NCBI GenBank assembly: GCA_022402445.1
Contig: JAKRSF010000010.1
Coordinates: 186,001 to 250,000 of the forward strand
Length of the DNA: 64,000 nucleotides
DNA from: Cyanobacteriota bacterium
GTDB taxonomy: Bacteria > Cyanobacteriota > Cyanobacteriia > CACIAM-69d
Direction of reading: 5' to 3'
The notes under the pieces are model-generated. The model saw nothing but the letters and a program-made list of their open reading frames with translations, was not told the DNA's origin and did no database searches. A program made the position numbers and the translations under genes. Position 1 is the stretch's first letter; each line of letters begins with the position of its first letter. This document shows positions 21,612-60,560 of the stretch, piece after piece.

Positions 21612-23336
21612 ATGAGCTACCCCATGAACCGCCGCGCCTATGCGGAAACCTATGGCCCCACGGTGGGCGATCGCGTGCGTTTGGCGGATACGGATCTGCT
21701 GATCGAGGTGGAGCGGGACTACACCACCTATGGCGATGAGGTGAAATTCGGCGGCGGTAAGGTGATCCGCGATGGCATGGGCCAGTCGCCGATCGCCAAT
21801 GGGGACGGGGCGGTGGATACGGTGATCACCAATGCCCTGATCCTGGATTGGTGGGGCATTGTCAAGGCGGATGTGGGGATTGTGGGGGGCAAGATCGCCG
21901 CGATCGGCAAGGCGGGCAATCCCAATACCCAGGATGGCGTCGATATCATCATCGGGCCGGGGACGGAGGCGATCGCGGGGGAGGGCTGCATCCTCACGGC
22001 GGGGGGCATCGATAGCCACATCCATTTCATCTGTCCGCAACAGATCGAAACCGCGATCGCCTCCGGCGTCACCACCATGATCGGCGGCGGCACGGGACCG
22101 GCCACGGGCACCAACGCCACCACCTGCACCCCCGGCCCGTGGCATTTGCACCGCATGTTGCAGGCGGCGGACGCCTTCCCCATGAACCTGGGCTTTTTGG
22201 GCAAGGGCAACAGCGCCCAACCGGCGGCCCTGGCGGAACAGATCCGGGCCGGAGCCTGCGGCCTCAAGCTCCATGAGGACTGGGGCACCACCCCCGCCAC
22301 CATCGACACTTGCTTAGCGGTGGCGGACGAGTTTGATATTCAGGTGGCGATCCACACGGACACCCTCAATGAGGCGGGGTTCGTGGAGGCGACGATCGCG
22401 GCGTTTAAAGACCGCACGATTCACACCTATCACACAGAGGGGGCCGGGGGCGGCCATGCGCCGGACATCATCCGCGTGTGCGGTTTGGCGAATGTGCTGC
22501 CGTCTTCGACGAATCCGACGCGCCCCTACACGGTCAACACCCTCGAAGAACACTTAGACATGCTGATGGTGTGCCACCACCTCGATCGCGCCATTCCTGA
22601 AGATGTGGCCTTTGCGGAGTCGCGCATCCGGCGGGAGACGATCGCGGCGGAGGATATTCTTCACGATCTCGGGGCGTTCAGCGCGATCGCGTCGGACTCC
22701 CAAGCCATGGGCCGCGTGGGGGAAGTGGTCTTACGCACCTGGCAAACGGCCCACAAAATGAAGCAGCAGCGGGGCTGGCTGACGGGCCGCGAGGGCATGG
22801 AAGCGCGCGATCGCAACGACAACTTCCGGGCCAAACGCTACGTGGCCAAATACACGATCAATCCGGCCCTGATGCACGGCATTGGCGATTACGTCGGCTC
22901 GATCGAGGTGGGTAAAATCGCCGACCTGTGCCTGTGGAAACCGGCCTTCTTTGGCGTCAAACCGGAAATGGTCCTCAAGGGCGGCGCGATCGCCTGGGCG
23001 CAGATGGGCGACCCGAACGCCAGCATCCCCACCCCCCAGCCCGTCCACATGCGGCCCATGTTCGCCAGCTACGGCGGTGCCCAAAGCGCCACCAGTTTTA
23101 CCTTTGTGTCGCAAGCCGCCGCCGAAACGGACCTGGCCCAGCGCCTCGGCCTCCAGAAAACCCTCCTGCCCGTTCGCAACTGCCGCGCGATCGGCAAGAG
23201 CGCCATGAAACTCAATGACGCCACCCCCGCGATCGCGGTGGACCCGGAAACCTACGAAGTGCGCGCCGACGGGGAACTGCTCACCTGCGAACCCGCCCAG
23301 GTCTTGCCCATGGCCCAGCGCTACTTTTTGTTCTAG
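21612..23336 (+). CDS. ureC: urease subunit alpha
   Basis: The catalytic urease subunit, 574 residues against about 567-572 in the family. Nickel and catalytic residues are all visible: His 136 and 138 (DSHIHF), carbamylated Lys 219 (GLKLHEDWG), His 248 (AIHTD), His 274 ([13 protein letters not shown]), the flap Cys 321 and His 322 (VCHHLD). The protein should be active once the accessory proteins load nickel. Ammonia from urea can feed glutamine and, through it, the carbamoyl-phosphate made by the CarB encoded just upstream. It starts at ATG 21612; an alternative at 21624 would lose only four residues. Confidence 0.98.
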
Positions 23337-53365: not shown

Positions 53366-54232
53366 ATGGATCGGCTAGGGACGGTGGAAAGGGGGCAGGC
53401 TTGGCGGGCGATCGCGGCGTCGGTGGCGGGGACGGGCCATGAGCGGCGATCGCTGCCGAACCAGGATGCGGTGGCGTGGCGATCGCGGGGGGGCTGGCTG
53501 TGGGGGGCCGTGGCGGATGGGGCCGGGTCGGCGGCGCGATCGCAGTGGGGTGCCCAGCGGGCGGTGGAAACGGTGACGGCGGTCCTGGGGGTCCAGGTGG
53601 CGGCGGCGTTGGCAACCTCAAGGGCGGGGAGCGATCGCCCGGATCCAGAGCCCCAAAATTCCCTGGCGGCGCGGCTGCGGGATGGCCTTAAAACCTCCCT
53701 AGCCCTGGCCCGGGCGGATCTAGAAACCCTGGCGCGGCAGGAAAACATTCCCCTGCGGGAGTTGGCCTGCACGACGATCGCGATCGCGGCGGGACCGAAC
53801 CTGGCGATCGCGGCGCAAATTGGCGATGGGGCGGCGGTGGTGGCGGACGCGGCGGGCCAGTGCCACACCCTCACCCGCCCGCAACAGGGGGAATATGCCA
53901 ACGAAACCGTATTCCTGACGGGGGATGGGGCGATCGCCGCGATCGTCTATGGGGAATTTCAAGGCACCCTCGCCCATGTGGCCCTTTTTTCCGACGGCCT
54001 CCAGCGCCTCGCCCTCGAACTGCCCAGCGGCGATCCCTTTGGCCCCTTCTTTGCCCCCCTGTTTCAGTTCGTGCAGGCCAGCGACGATCCCGCAGCGGCC
54101 CAGGAAACCCTCAGCGCCTTCCTGCGATCGCCCAAGGTCACCGCCCGCACCGACGATGACCTCACCCTCCTGCTCGGCAGTTTGCATCCGGGGCAAGGCG
54201 ATCGCCCTACAGCAGAAAACGCACCCCAATGA
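53366..54232 (+). CDS. PP2C-family protein phosphatase
   Basis: A 288-residue PP2C. It keeps the metal-binding motifs: NQDAVAW, VADGAGSAARS, QIGDGAAVV, LFSDGLQ and RTDDDLTLLL. These place Asp residues for two Mn/Mg ions. It is of the bacterial type that pairs with TerY-like VWA proteins, five bases upstream here. The likely substrate is a phosphoprotein, perhaps the VWA protein or an unlinked kinase. The end of the gene overlaps the convergent transporter gene by 26 bases. Confidence 0.88.
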   Translation: MDRLGTVERGQAWRAIAASVAGTGHERRSLPNQDAVAWRSRGGWLWGAVADGAGSAARSQWGAQRAVETVTAVLGVQVAAALATSRAGSDRPDPEPQNSLAARLRDGLKTSLALARADLETLARQENIPLRELACTTIAIAAGPNLAIAAQIGDGAAVVADAAGQCHTLTRPQQGEYANETVFLTGDGAIAAIVYGEFQGTLAHVALFSDGLQRLALELPSGDPFGPFFAPLFQFVQASDDPAAAQETLSAFLRSPKVTARTDDDLTLLLGSLHPGQGDRPTAENAPQ

Positions 54233-55544
54233 ACAGGGCCGAAATCCCCAACTGGGCCAGCATCACCGGCATCCCGTAGCGCAGAAACCGCTTGAAGGAA
54301 ATGGGATGACCGTGCTGCTCCGCGATCCCCGCCGCCACAATATTCGACGACGCCCCCACCAGGGTGCCATTGCCCCCCAAGGTCGCGCCAAACATCATGG
54401 CGTAGAACAAAGGCAGCACCGCCGGCGGCAGCGATCCGCTGTAATCCGTCGCCAAAATCTCCGGCGGCGCAAGGTTTACCTGCACCACATACTCCTTCAG
54501 CAGGGGCACGGCGGCCACCACCAGGGGAATGTTGGGGATCAGCGTCGAAATGCCCCCCATCAGGAACAGCAGCAGAATCGACCCGATGAAAATGTTTTGC
54601 CCCAGGACCAGGGCCAGCAAGCCCGACAGTTGGCTCAGGACGCCGGTTTTTTCTAGGGAGCCGATCAGCACAAAAATCGCCATAAAAAACAGCAGGGTGC
54701 TCCAATCCACATCCGCCAGGATGCGATGGACCGTATCGATTTTGCTGTGGTGGGCGAGGAAGAGGGCCAATGCGGCCCCCATCAGGGCGGCGGCGGCGGG
54801 GGGCACGGGGCTCGGCAGCAGTTCCCCCACCACGAAGAGGATGAGCATGAAGGCCGCGATCGCGCTGCCGACGATCAACATGCGCGGATGCTCAATGGTG
54901 GGCAGGGGAATTTCCTCCGGATGCTCCAACTTCTGCCGCCACAGGCGCGGGAACAGCCACGGCAGCATGACAACAATCACCGCGATCGACAGCACCCCGC
55001 CGATCGCCAGCCGCTCCAGATATTGCAAAAAGGTGACATTCACCGCATCCCCCACGATGTAGGTGGCCGGATCCCCCACCAGGGTCAGCAGGCCCGCGCT
55101 ATTGGCCACCAGCACCAGCAAAATCAGCAGCGGCACGAAATCCACCCCCAAATCCATCGCCAGGGGCGGCAGCAGGGGAGCTAAGAGGGCCACGGTAGTT
55201 GCGTTGGGCAGCACGGCACAGATGGGGGCGGTGATGCCCACGATCGCCAGGAGCAAGCGTCGGCCGCTGCCCTGGGCCATCTGGACCATGCGCCCCGCCA
55301 GGTAGTCAAACACGCGGGTGGGTTGGAAGGCCCGCACCGTCACCATCACCCCAAACAGCAGGGTCAAGGTGGGGTAGCCGCGCCCGATGAAATCAATGGC
55401 CTCCGTCAGGGTGAGCACATGGCCGAACACCAGCAGCAGCGCCCCCATCAGGGCGGCAACGGTGAGGTGAACGGAGTCGGTGGCTACTACGAAAATGACC
55501 GCCACGAAGACCGTGGCGGAGGCGACCGCTTGTAGATTTTCCAT
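54207..55544 (-). CDS. ArsB/NhaD or SLC13-type transporter
   Basis: A 445-residue membrane protein with about eleven hydrophobic helices. The sequence (LLFGVMVTVRAFQPTRVFDY, VLPNATTVALLAPL, LVGDPATYIVGDAVNVTF, LIPNIPLVVAAVPLL and MMFGATLGGNGTLVGASSNI) has the two NP-containing hairpins and GGN..LVGASSNI end of the ion-transporter superfamily (ArsB, NhaD, P-protein). It could move Na+/H+, arsenite or organic anions; no ars regulatory genes are near, so I do not choose. It overlaps the PP2C gene tail to tail. Confidence 0.88.
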   Translation of the reverse strand: MENLQAVASATVFVAVIFVVATDSVHLTVAALMGALLLVFGHVLTLTEAIDFIGRGYPTLTLLFGVMVTVRAFQPTRVFDYLAGRMVQMAQGSGRRLLLAIVGITAPICAVLPNATTVALLAPLLPPLAMDLGVDFVPLLILLVLVANSAGLLTLVGDPATYIVGDAVNVTFLQYLERLAIGGVLSIAVIVVMLPWLFPRLWRQKLEHPEEIPLPTIEHPRMLIVGSAIAAFMLILFVVGELLPSPVPPAAAALMGAALALFLAHHSKIDTVHRILADVDWSTLLFFMAIFVLIGSLEKTGVLSQLSGLLALVLGQNIFIGSILLLFLMGGISTLIPNIPLVVAAVPLLKEYVVQVNLAPPEILATDYSGSLPPAVLPLFYAMMFGATLGGNGTLVGASSNIVAAGIAEQHGHPISFKRFLRYGMPVMLAQLGISALFIGVRFLL

Positions 55545-55884
55545 AGATTTGATCCCAATGGCCGACGAGGTTAGCTGGCGGGCTAGGAAATGGGATTTTC
55601 CTTTTCCAGGGTTTGGAAATGCGCCCCAAGTATCAGGTGGGTCCCCCGTTCGCCGGATGCCCGAAGGGTCCGGTCAATTAGGCACGATGAATGGTGGTGG
55701 TTTTAGAGGGTTGACGGATCCATAGGGCTGTGGAGCAGCGGCTATGGATTTCCATTGAGTGTATCGAAAATGCTGGTGAAATGCTGATGATGGGGGGGAT
55801 CTAGGGGACGGTTGGGGGGATGGGGGCGCGGGGGGTTTTAAGGTGGGGCTAACGAATCAATGCCCCATGGAGATTTGAGCCACC
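55545..55884. other. divergent spacer, no gene seen
   Basis: Some 340 bases between the transporter (-) and the secreted helical protein (+). It contains G-rich tracts (55790-55850) and no ORF, hairpin terminator or repeat I can support. Confidence 0.5.
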
Positions 55885-58116: not shown

Positions 58117-58136
58117 CAAAGGGCTTCAGCCCCGCG
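58117..58136. repeat. REP-like degenerate palindrome, copy 3
   Basis: CAAAGGGCTTCAGCCCCGCG is the third member of the 20-bp family at 21512 and 40597, with a decayed right end. Confidence 0.55.
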
Positions 58137-58153: not shown

Positions 58154-58179
58154 AAAAAAAACCGACCTCTTCGGGTCGG
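58154..58179 (-). terminator. intrinsic terminator
   Basis: On the minus strand CCGACC and GGTCGG form a six-base-pair stem with a six-base loop, followed by eight T. It can end the candidate sRNA and the NFACT transcript, whose stop is 230 bases upstream. Confidence 0.88.
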
Positions 58180-58319
58180 CGGTGATGCTAAAAAACTGGT
58201 TGTCTACTGCATTTCGCAAGAAGCTCGGAAAAATTCTGGGGGACGGGGCGATCGCGCTTCCCACGGCACAATCTGACCACGGCACAGGGTGGGTCCGACC
58301 CGTCAGTGCTGCTCCTGCT
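58154..58319 (-). ncRNA. candidate small RNA of about 165 nt
   Basis: A minus-strand unit with its own promoter and terminator but no ORF. Transcription should start near 58319 and end at the terminator (58179-58154). Inside is a direct repeat TGTGCCGTGG at about 16-base spacing. The 5' segment CGGGTCGG (58302-58295) is an exact complement of CCGACCCG (58179-58172), which contains the terminator's 5' arm, so the RNA can close an 8-bp long-range stem or form the terminator. This fits a stand-alone regulatory RNA or an attenuator-like switch. No minus-strand gene follows within 2 kb. It does not look like Yfr1 (no ACTCCTCACAC). Confidence 0.5.
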
Positions 58320-58325
58320 GGACTG

Positions 58326-58355
58326 ATTGTAGTGGCGGATACGAAAAATATGCAA
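58326..58355 (-). promoter_or_regulatory. sigma-70-type promoter of candidate sRNA
   Basis: On the minus strand -35 TTGCAT (58355-58350), an 18-base spacer and -10 TACAAT (58331-58326). Confidence 0.55.
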
Positions 58356-58408
58356 CAAAAGTTAACAGGGTTCCCTGACATTGTGTAGCGATCGTTACGG
58401 TGTGGTCC

Positions 58409-60145
58409 CTAGGGGGTGGCGGGGGCGATCGCGATCGCCCGTTGGGGGTTGGCCCAGAGGACGGTTTCGCGGCGGTAGAGGACGGTGCCGGGGCTAGCGC
58501 CCTTGGGTTTGTAGACGTGGCGGGGGTGGGTGTAGACCACCGGTACGGCGTCGCTGTGGCGGGCGCGGCTGTGGCGGGCGGCAAGGTCGGCGGCGGTTTG
58601 GAGGTCCGTGTCGGTGGGGGCGGTGCCCGGTGGCAGGCGCAGGAGTACGTGGCTACCGGCGATTTCCTGGGCGTGGAACCACAGGTCATAGTCCCCGGCG
58701 AGGCGGAAGGTGAGGCGATCGTTTTGGCCGTTGTTGCGCCCGACCCAAATGTTGTGGCCGCTGGGGGTTTGGTAGCGGTGGAATCCTTCGGCGCGATCGC
58801 GATCGGGTCGTCGATAGCCCGGATCGGCGAGATAGCCTTGGTTGATTAATTCGTCGCGGATTTCTTCGATCGCGGCGAGGTCGTCCGGGTGGCGGTAGCG
58901 ATCGCAGTCAAGCAAAGCCGTTTCTACCCGCTCTAGATAATTGAGTTCATCGGTGACCGCCGCCAAAAGGGGTTCAATGGCTTGACGCGATCGCTTGAGT
59001 TTTTGGTGTTTTTTATAGAATTTTTGGGCATTGCTGACCGCGTCGAGGGCTGGGTCAAGGGGAATGGAAATAGGCGCTTCCGTCTCAAAGTCCGGCAGGG
59101 TAATCGCAGCCATTCCCGGCTGCCAATGGTGCAAATGGGCCATCAGTAAATCCGCCTGGGCGCGCATTTGATCGGCTTCATTGGACAGGGCGAGGCGATC
59201 GCGGAATTCATCCCGTTTCTTGGTCAATTTCGCCGTTTGATTCGCCACCTTCTGGCGCAATTGATGCACTAGCCGCTGGAACGTGTCCCCATTGAGGCGA
59301 TCGCCATAGTACCGATCCAATAGCTCCTGCACCGTCGGCGCGGCCTGCCCCTGGGGTGCCCCCACGACGCTATAGCCCGTGGCGGTCCAGACCGGATCAA
59401 AGGTTTCTGTTTCTAGGGCCTTCAGCCAGCCTCGCCAAACGTCAAAGAGTCGCCGCCATTCAATCTCCGTTAAGTTCGCCGTGGCCTGATCTGGGTCCAG
59501 GTCTGCCATCTGGGCCAGCGATCGCGCCAGGGTCGAACTGAGGCCCCGATAGCTTTTCACCAACTGCCGCGCGATCGCCCCCGGCACCAGCCCCACGCGA
59601 TCGCGCCAGCTTTCAAAGGGCTCCTCGATCCGGGGCGTCGTATCCACCAGCGGCGGCGGCAACTCGTAGGGCTGCCCCGTTTGGATGGGCCGAATGCGGG
59701 ACTGCTGGGAACTCACCTGATGGGCCGCCGTTACAATCACATTCTCTGCCGTGCAGAGAATCACATTGCTGTATTTGCCCATGATTTCCACATACAAATG
59801 CCACTGCACCGGATCCCCCGGCCGCCGCGCGAATTGCAGATCCACCACCCGTTCCCAGGGGGTAACCCGGTCAAACTTCACAATTGCTAGCCCCTTCAAC
59901 TGGTGCAAAAGCTGCTGGCTGAACGTAAACGTATCCGGCTCCTTCGGCGGTGCTTCCCCCATATGGATGCGCGCCGCCTCCGGGTGCCAGCCGATCGCCA
60001 GCCAGCCCCGCCGCTCCAGGGTCCGCAAACAGAGATAGACCGTGAAGCGATCGCGCTGAAACACCTGTTCCAACCGGGCAGGGCACCAATCTCGCCCCAA
60101 CTCCGCCACGGCGGCGGCAAAGGTGGTGTAGTCAACGGGTTGCAT
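58409..60145 (-). CDS. NFACT family protein (RqcH/Rqc2 homologue)
   Basis: A 578-residue protein with the NFACT layout: N-terminal domain (MQPVDYTTFAAAVAELGRDW, VDLQFARRPGDPVQWHLYVE, MGKYSNVILC), helix-hairpin and coiled-coil (NQTAKLTKKRDEFRDRLALS, FYKKHQKLKRSRQAIEPL) and C-terminal NFACT-R domain (GHNIWVGRNNGQNDRLTFRL, DLWFHAQEIAGSHVLLRLPP). Relatives bind stalled 50S subunits and add alanine tails to nascent chains for decay. Older annotation as fibronectin-binding protein is misleading for a cyanobacterium. ATG 60145 is chosen over 60193 because it begins the conserved MQPVDYT. Confidence 0.92.
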   Translation of the reverse strand: MQPVDYTTFAAAVAELGRDWCPARLEQVFQRDRFTVYLCLRTLERRGWLAIGWHPEAARIHMGEAPPKEPDTFTFSQQLLHQLKGLAIVKFDRVTPWERVVDLQFARRPGDPVQWHLYVEIMGKYSNVILCTAENVIVTAAHQVSSQQSRIRPIQTGQPYELPPPLVDTTPRIEEPFESWRDRVGLVPGAIARQLVKSYRGLSSTLARSLAQMADLDPDQATANLTEIEWRRLFDVWRGWLKALETETFDPVWTATGYSVVGAPQGQAAPTVQELLDRYYGDRLNGDTFQRLVHQLRQKVANQTAKLTKKRDEFRDRLALSNEADQMRAQADLLMAHLHHWQPGMAAITLPDFETEAPISIPLDPALDAVSNAQKFYKKHQKLKRSRQAIEPLLAAVTDELNYLERVETALLDCDRYRHPDDLAAIEEIRDELINQGYLADPGYRRPDRDRAEGFHRYQTPSGHNIWVGRNNGQNDRLTFRLAGDYDLWFHAQEIAGSHVLLRLPPGTAPTDTDLQTAADLAARHSRARHSDAVPVVYTHPRHVYKPKGASPGTVLYRRETVLWANPQRAIAIAPATP

Positions 60146-60560
60146 AGGGCGATCGCGCCACGGACGCGGAGAAGGCGACGCCCATTTTAACAAGGCTGCC
60201 TCCCCGCCACCGCCCCACCCATGCCGAACGCTCCCCCGCGATCGCCCAATATCACCTTAAGAACCCTTAAAGGAAAGGTTAAAGTCCGTCTAAAGCTATC
60301 CCCAAAGCCATACTCAAGGTCAGCCCCAAAAACCGCCCAAAATCATCCCCTAAAAATCCCCTAGGTCATCCCTTAGAGCCGTCTTAAAAGGCAAAAGTTG
60401 CTAACACCTAAGCTCGCCCTTGAGTTCCCCTAAGGGCAAATTTGCCCCGCAACAATTCTCTCCCGAAGGATTTCCTTAATCCCCGTAGGAATCAAAACCG
60501 AACGGTGAATAATACTAAATACTCTCCATAGCCAGTCCAGCGCTGGCCCAACCGCAACCC
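60146..60560. other. long leader before the channel gene
   Basis: About 400 bases, AT-richer than the neighbours, with many short CCCTTAA/CCCCTAA-like words between 60240 and 60440 and a palindromic GGGCAAATTTGCCC at 60437-60450. A TAATAC box lies near 60510. It is likely the promoter and untranslated leader. Confidence 0.45.

Follow-up and report, generated by a model that had tools for sequence, protein, structure and literature searches.

A probable diverged member of a widespread, often rqcH-linked cyanobacterial small RNA family carrying an NtcA-type box

It seems reasonably likely that the minus-strand segment 58319-58154 of the window (the whole 64-kb stretch of DNA analysed here) is a diverged member of a widespread family of small RNAs that are linked to rqcH and carry an NtcA-type box, and that its terminator also ends rqcH, as the RNA unit lies directly behind this gene. 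Comparison of genome sequences makes the existence of the family itself appear well supported: a cyanobacterial small RNA that is widespread, occurs mostly as a single copy and in about half of its hosts is found just behind rqcH. The features of the locus are as follows.

58409..60193, minus strand: rqcH/NFACT gene (Pfam NFACT_N, 7.6e-125, and NFACT-R_1)
58385..58398, minus strand: second strict match to the NtcA consensus (GTAN8TAC), GTAACGATCGCTAC, just past the rqcH stop and upstream of the first box
58329..58342, minus strand: NtcA-type box GTATCCGCCACTAC overlapping the -10 element, in the same register as in 46/51 family members
58326..58331, minus strand: -10 element TACAAT, near-invariant in the family; start expected near 58319
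58154..58319, minus strand: putative small RNA of ~166 nt, proposed from synteny and motif order; the best model match in 64 kb falls here and is weak
58261..58286, minus strand: direct repeat TGTGCCGTGG, present twice (58286-58277 and 58270-58261); P about 0.008 in dinucleotide shuffles, post hoc
58253..58263, minus strand: TGGGAAGCGCG, corresponding to the core TGGGAACGCGC of the family; TGGGAA in the interval, P 0.017 in shuffles
58199..58205, minus strand: AGACAAC, corresponding to the motif GACAACG of the family, aligned by both covariance models (R1 and R2, below); P 0.016 in shuffles
58154..58180, minus strand: intrinsic terminator with T-run, from terminator scans, common to rqcH and the RNA

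The locus behind rqcH

The rqcH/NFACT genes form a ribosome-rescue family, and rqcH was found in 59/59 relatives. In the window the gene ends at 58409, only ~230 nt ahead of the terminator of the RNA and on the same strand. This terminator, consisting of GCCGACCCGAAGAGGTCGGT and T8 at 58180-58154, is as strong as a first-pass annotation of this DNA had claimed, and (at 58180-58161) no other intrinsic terminator of the minus strand turned up on the way from rqcH to the convergent glcD. Since rqcH stops at 58409 on the same strand, the terminator therefore has a plain purpose. The first-pass annotation had presented the segment as a promoter-to-terminator unit: the parts are indeed present, but the unit is not isolated, and the rqcH gene directly upstream on the same strand had been omitted. 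Its statement that there is no credible open reading frame agrees with our finding no frame with a family match in the segment, and it is equally borne out that no minus-strand gene follows, so that nothing on this strand lies downstream for read-through to serve.

The promoter is less convincing than the good -35/-10 pair that had been described. The -10 element TACAAT matches the consensus at 5/6 positions and the 18-nt spacer is as proposed, but the -35 element TTGCAT is poor (3/6), and a pair with the resulting total of 8/12 is present in 28% of shuffled 170-nt stretches (P about 0.28). A stricter promoter scan found no promoter in the segment.

At the DNA level, the whole region has no homologue among 388 genomes of the class, and searches with it against sets of 59, 6 and 388 genomes, plasmids and phages returned short matches only, mostly at or beside the GCGATCGC repeat. 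One match, at 58199-58173, where the sequence resembles a coding segment in another genome (G311), was taken as chance, and a repeat-element origin of GTCCCCCAGAATT was rejected on account of too few copies. The pairing of rqcH with glcD is not kept in the family relatives examined for synteny. At 58124-58136, adjoining an A/T run, lies the palindromic GGGCTGAAGCCC, which is probably a small dispersed intergenic palindrome, because another locus (L006) has GGGGCTTAAGCCCC copies. Elsewhere in the window, a c-di-AMP riboswitch (RF00379, 66.6 bits) occupies 55545-55694 on the minus strand, directly ahead of a CitMHS/ArsB-type transporter gene (54207-55544, minus strand). The Rfam family 5_ureB_sRNA, described as antisense to ureB, matches 21767-22053 on the minus strand with 119.5 bits, a match which may simply stem from the conservation of ureB as coding sequence on the opposite strand.

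A conserved small RNA family and its copy in the window

An intrinsic terminator was found within 400 nt behind rqcH at 41/75 loci, as against 1/240 stretches inside the gene. The units ending at such terminators share a layout, TGTTACAAT, a variable stretch and CCCGCTGCA..TTTGGGAACGCGCAG..GGTTT.CTC..TTGAGAAGACAACG, followed by the terminator, and correspond to RNAs of ~110-130 nt with the -10 element TACAAT, the core TGGGAACGCGCAG, the motif GACAACG and a covarying terminator. We built a covariance model (R1) from 24 rqcH-linked units and a broader one (R2) that starts at the promoter box. R1 matches 51/79 cyanobacterial rqcH loci, downstream of the gene and on its strand, with E values from 1e-12 to 1e-32; R2 matches 140/291 genomes and 81/130 genera, nearly always in a single copy, and recovers the held-out members of S. 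elongatus and of a further genome (G019) at the syntenic place behind rqcH. In the 59-genome set about half of the family matches fall at most 300 nt behind rqcH and the rest elsewhere. No Rfam 15 family reaches its gathering score, and neither Rfam 15 nor the open literature that was searched offered a name for the RNA; start-site catalogues (e.g. Table S3, PMC4734099) may list it unnamed. The nearest relatives of the window genome (G001-G005) have no clear family copy. At the rqcH loci of two of them (L264 and L265, in G001 and G003) a strong hairpin, AAAGCCT..AGGCTTT, directly follows the gene, with no recognisable small RNA.

The NtcA consensus GTRN8TAC overlaps the -10 element in 46/51 rqcH-linked members (39/44 when these are made non-redundant), its G and T, 11 and 10 bases ahead of TACAAT, being each 93% conserved, and family copies away from rqcH carry the box as well. 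In the window, box and -10 element together form GTATCCGCCACTACAAT (58342-58326), in the family register. The combination of GTRN8TAC and a -10-like NNT occurs at two places in 64 kb, and the other motifs follow only the copy at 58342-58326. Boxes placed over the -10 element are associated with repression, and binding of NtcA to such a box was demonstrated by gel shift for NsrR1 (PMC6166021). Because the box covers the -10 element, in the layout of NsrR1, where both binding and NtcA-dependent repression have been shown, NtcA would be expected to bind the putative box and to repress the RNA under nitrogen shortage. Under nitrogen-replete conditions the RNA would then base-pair with mRNAs, perhaps through its C/U-rich UUUCCUC segment, which resembles an anti-Shine-Dalgarno sequence.

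The only two GTAN8TAC sites of the 64 kb sit here, both within 70 nt (post hoc, P 0.0006 against local shuffles); across the genome this motif is not enriched, with 109 sites in 4.08 Mb, a density near that of shuffled sequence (1.4 per 64 kb). An NtcA-activated promoter, made of the upstream box and TAACTT at N20, was considered and rejected, as this spacing is not enriched genome-wide (5 cases vs 10 in the control).

The order of elements in the window is that of the family: box and -10 element, TGGGAAGCGCG, AGACAAC and terminator, behind rqcH and on its strand. A box plus RRACAAC ahead of a terminator arose in 2/40,000 shuffles, and TGGGAA between box and RRACAAC carries a further P of 0.017 in shuffles. 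The best model match in both 64 kb and 50 kb falls exactly on the window RNA and on the right strand; its score of 8.0 bits comes mostly from the terminator (E 0.97 over 50 kb, 0.0056 over the intergenic region), and plain terminators elsewhere reach 14 bits. With plain terminators scoring as high, it is synteny and the order of the motifs that carry the case for membership. As to its divergence, the window core TGGGAAGCGCG is an imperfect match to TGGGAAcGCGC, there is no extended -10 TG, and the spacer from the -10 element to GACAAC measures 126 nt, longer than in the aligned members. The best R1 match elsewhere in the same genome (C8:93193) was discarded as noise, having neither terminator nor box and a low R2 score. 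Taken at the sequence level, the window RNA is thus a probable diverged member of the rqcH-linked family. The first-pass suggestion of a free small RNA and not a leader finds support in the comparison: many cyanobacteria have, in the corresponding position behind rqcH, a conserved promoter-to-terminator RNA with the same -10 element, NtcA-type box, GGGAA core and GACAAC.

Folding and alternative readings

The idea that the RNA can mask its own terminator arose from an exact pairing between its 5' segment and the first terminator arm. This 8-nt complement, CGGGTCGG (58302-58295) with CCGACCCG (58179-58172), is indeed present and uncommon (P about 0.009 in dinucleotide shuffles, post hoc), and the alternative helix dominates the predicted fold only when the RNA is truncated directly past that arm. 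In the full-length RNA, however, the terminator forms with P about 1, as against P about 0 for the alternative helix, and the fold of the whole RNA is no better than that of shuffles (z -0.08). The terminator covaries, all 7/7 modelled pairs showing two-sided changes in the family; an 8-nt complement to the first arm was found in 0/36 members, the mean longest complement being 4.5 nt vs 4.7 nt in shuffles. Given the absence of the helix in these 36 members and the terminator P of about 1, masking would be at most private to this strain, and with no minus-strand element downstream that read-through would serve, we regard terminator self-masking as highly improbable. The 10-nt direct repeat previously pointed out was likewise found; it is not shared by the aligned family members and gives the impression of a local duplication adjoining the conserved core.

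Another reading holds that the segment is only the 3' untranslated region of rqcH with its terminator, which stops transcription ahead of the convergent glcD, and that the promoter-like and complementary segments are due to chance. The proximity of the rqcH stop, with no other minus-strand terminator in between, agrees with it, and so do the chance level of the promoter pair, the lack of a fold excess and the lack of DNA matches for the whole region in the 388 genomes. Nevertheless, many genomes conserve an independent RNA in this position, and in the window box, -10 element, core and GACAAC follow one another as in the family, so that this reading appears unlikely. The common terminator and strand would also suit an RNA processed from the rqcH 3' untranslated region instead of made from its own promoter, and 3'-derived small RNAs of cyanobacteria are indicated in PMC8136909; but no part of the family is better conserved than the -10 element and the box, in copies away from rqcH too, which makes such processing very unlikely. 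That the RNA is an orthologue of NsrR1 or PsrR1 is highly improbable. NsrR1 has the same arrangement of NtcA box over -10 element and a similar length (PMC6166021), yet it follows alr1709, encoding an alpha/beta hydrolase (PMC12923008), and its U51, C63 and C66 misfit the Nostocaceae members tested, whichever start is taken from 0 to 11 bases past the -10 element; it was rejected on neighbour gene and nucleotides despite the shared box. PsrR1, a conserved RNA of 131 nt, has published positions in S. elongatus PCC 7942 and UTEX 2973 (PMC6091082). In S. elongatus, a unit near 1,063.8 kb has an HLR1-type promoter and CTCCTCCTC and is, by these and by map position, a PsrR1 candidate, whereas the rqcH-linked RNA lies near 580.9 kb and differs in sequence; PsrR1 was rejected on separate locus, sequence and promoter.

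Significance and comparison with known small RNAs

The preferred reading is that of a diverged family member behind rqcH. To our knowledge, few cyanobacterial small RNAs are conserved phylum-wide, namely Yfr1, Yfr2, PsrR1, NsiR4 and IsaR1. Judged from sequence comparison, the present family may well be an undescribed, widespread, single-copy cyanobacterial small RNA, often anchored at rqcH and under NtcA control, with a strongly drifted copy in the window. If so, nitrogen status would be tied to an RNA regulon extending well past the heterocyst-formers, the group in which NsrR1 was identified, and a further conserved single-copy small RNA with an NtcA box on its promoter would add to nitrogen control a second arm that can be tested. 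The covariance model makes the family easy to annotate.

Among known systems, NsrR1 of PCC 7120 (PMC6166021) resembles the family in that it is intergenic, measures ~110 nt, ends in an intrinsic terminator and has GTRN8TAC overlapping the -10 element; it differs in its neighbour, the hydrolase gene alr1709, in nucleotides 51, 63 and 66, and in its reported range, which covers only heterocystous strains and two close ones. PsrR1/SyR1 is, like the family, a conserved cyanobacterial small RNA, of ~130 nt, with a C/U-rich segment resembling an anti-Shine-Dalgarno sequence, but it has a separate locus in S. elongatus and a promoter of the RpaB (HLR1) type, and no sequence similarity was seen. NsiR4, likewise small and intergenic, belongs to the NtcA network according to the literature; it is set apart by its description, being induced by nitrogen stress, whereas the RNA proposed here would be repressed.
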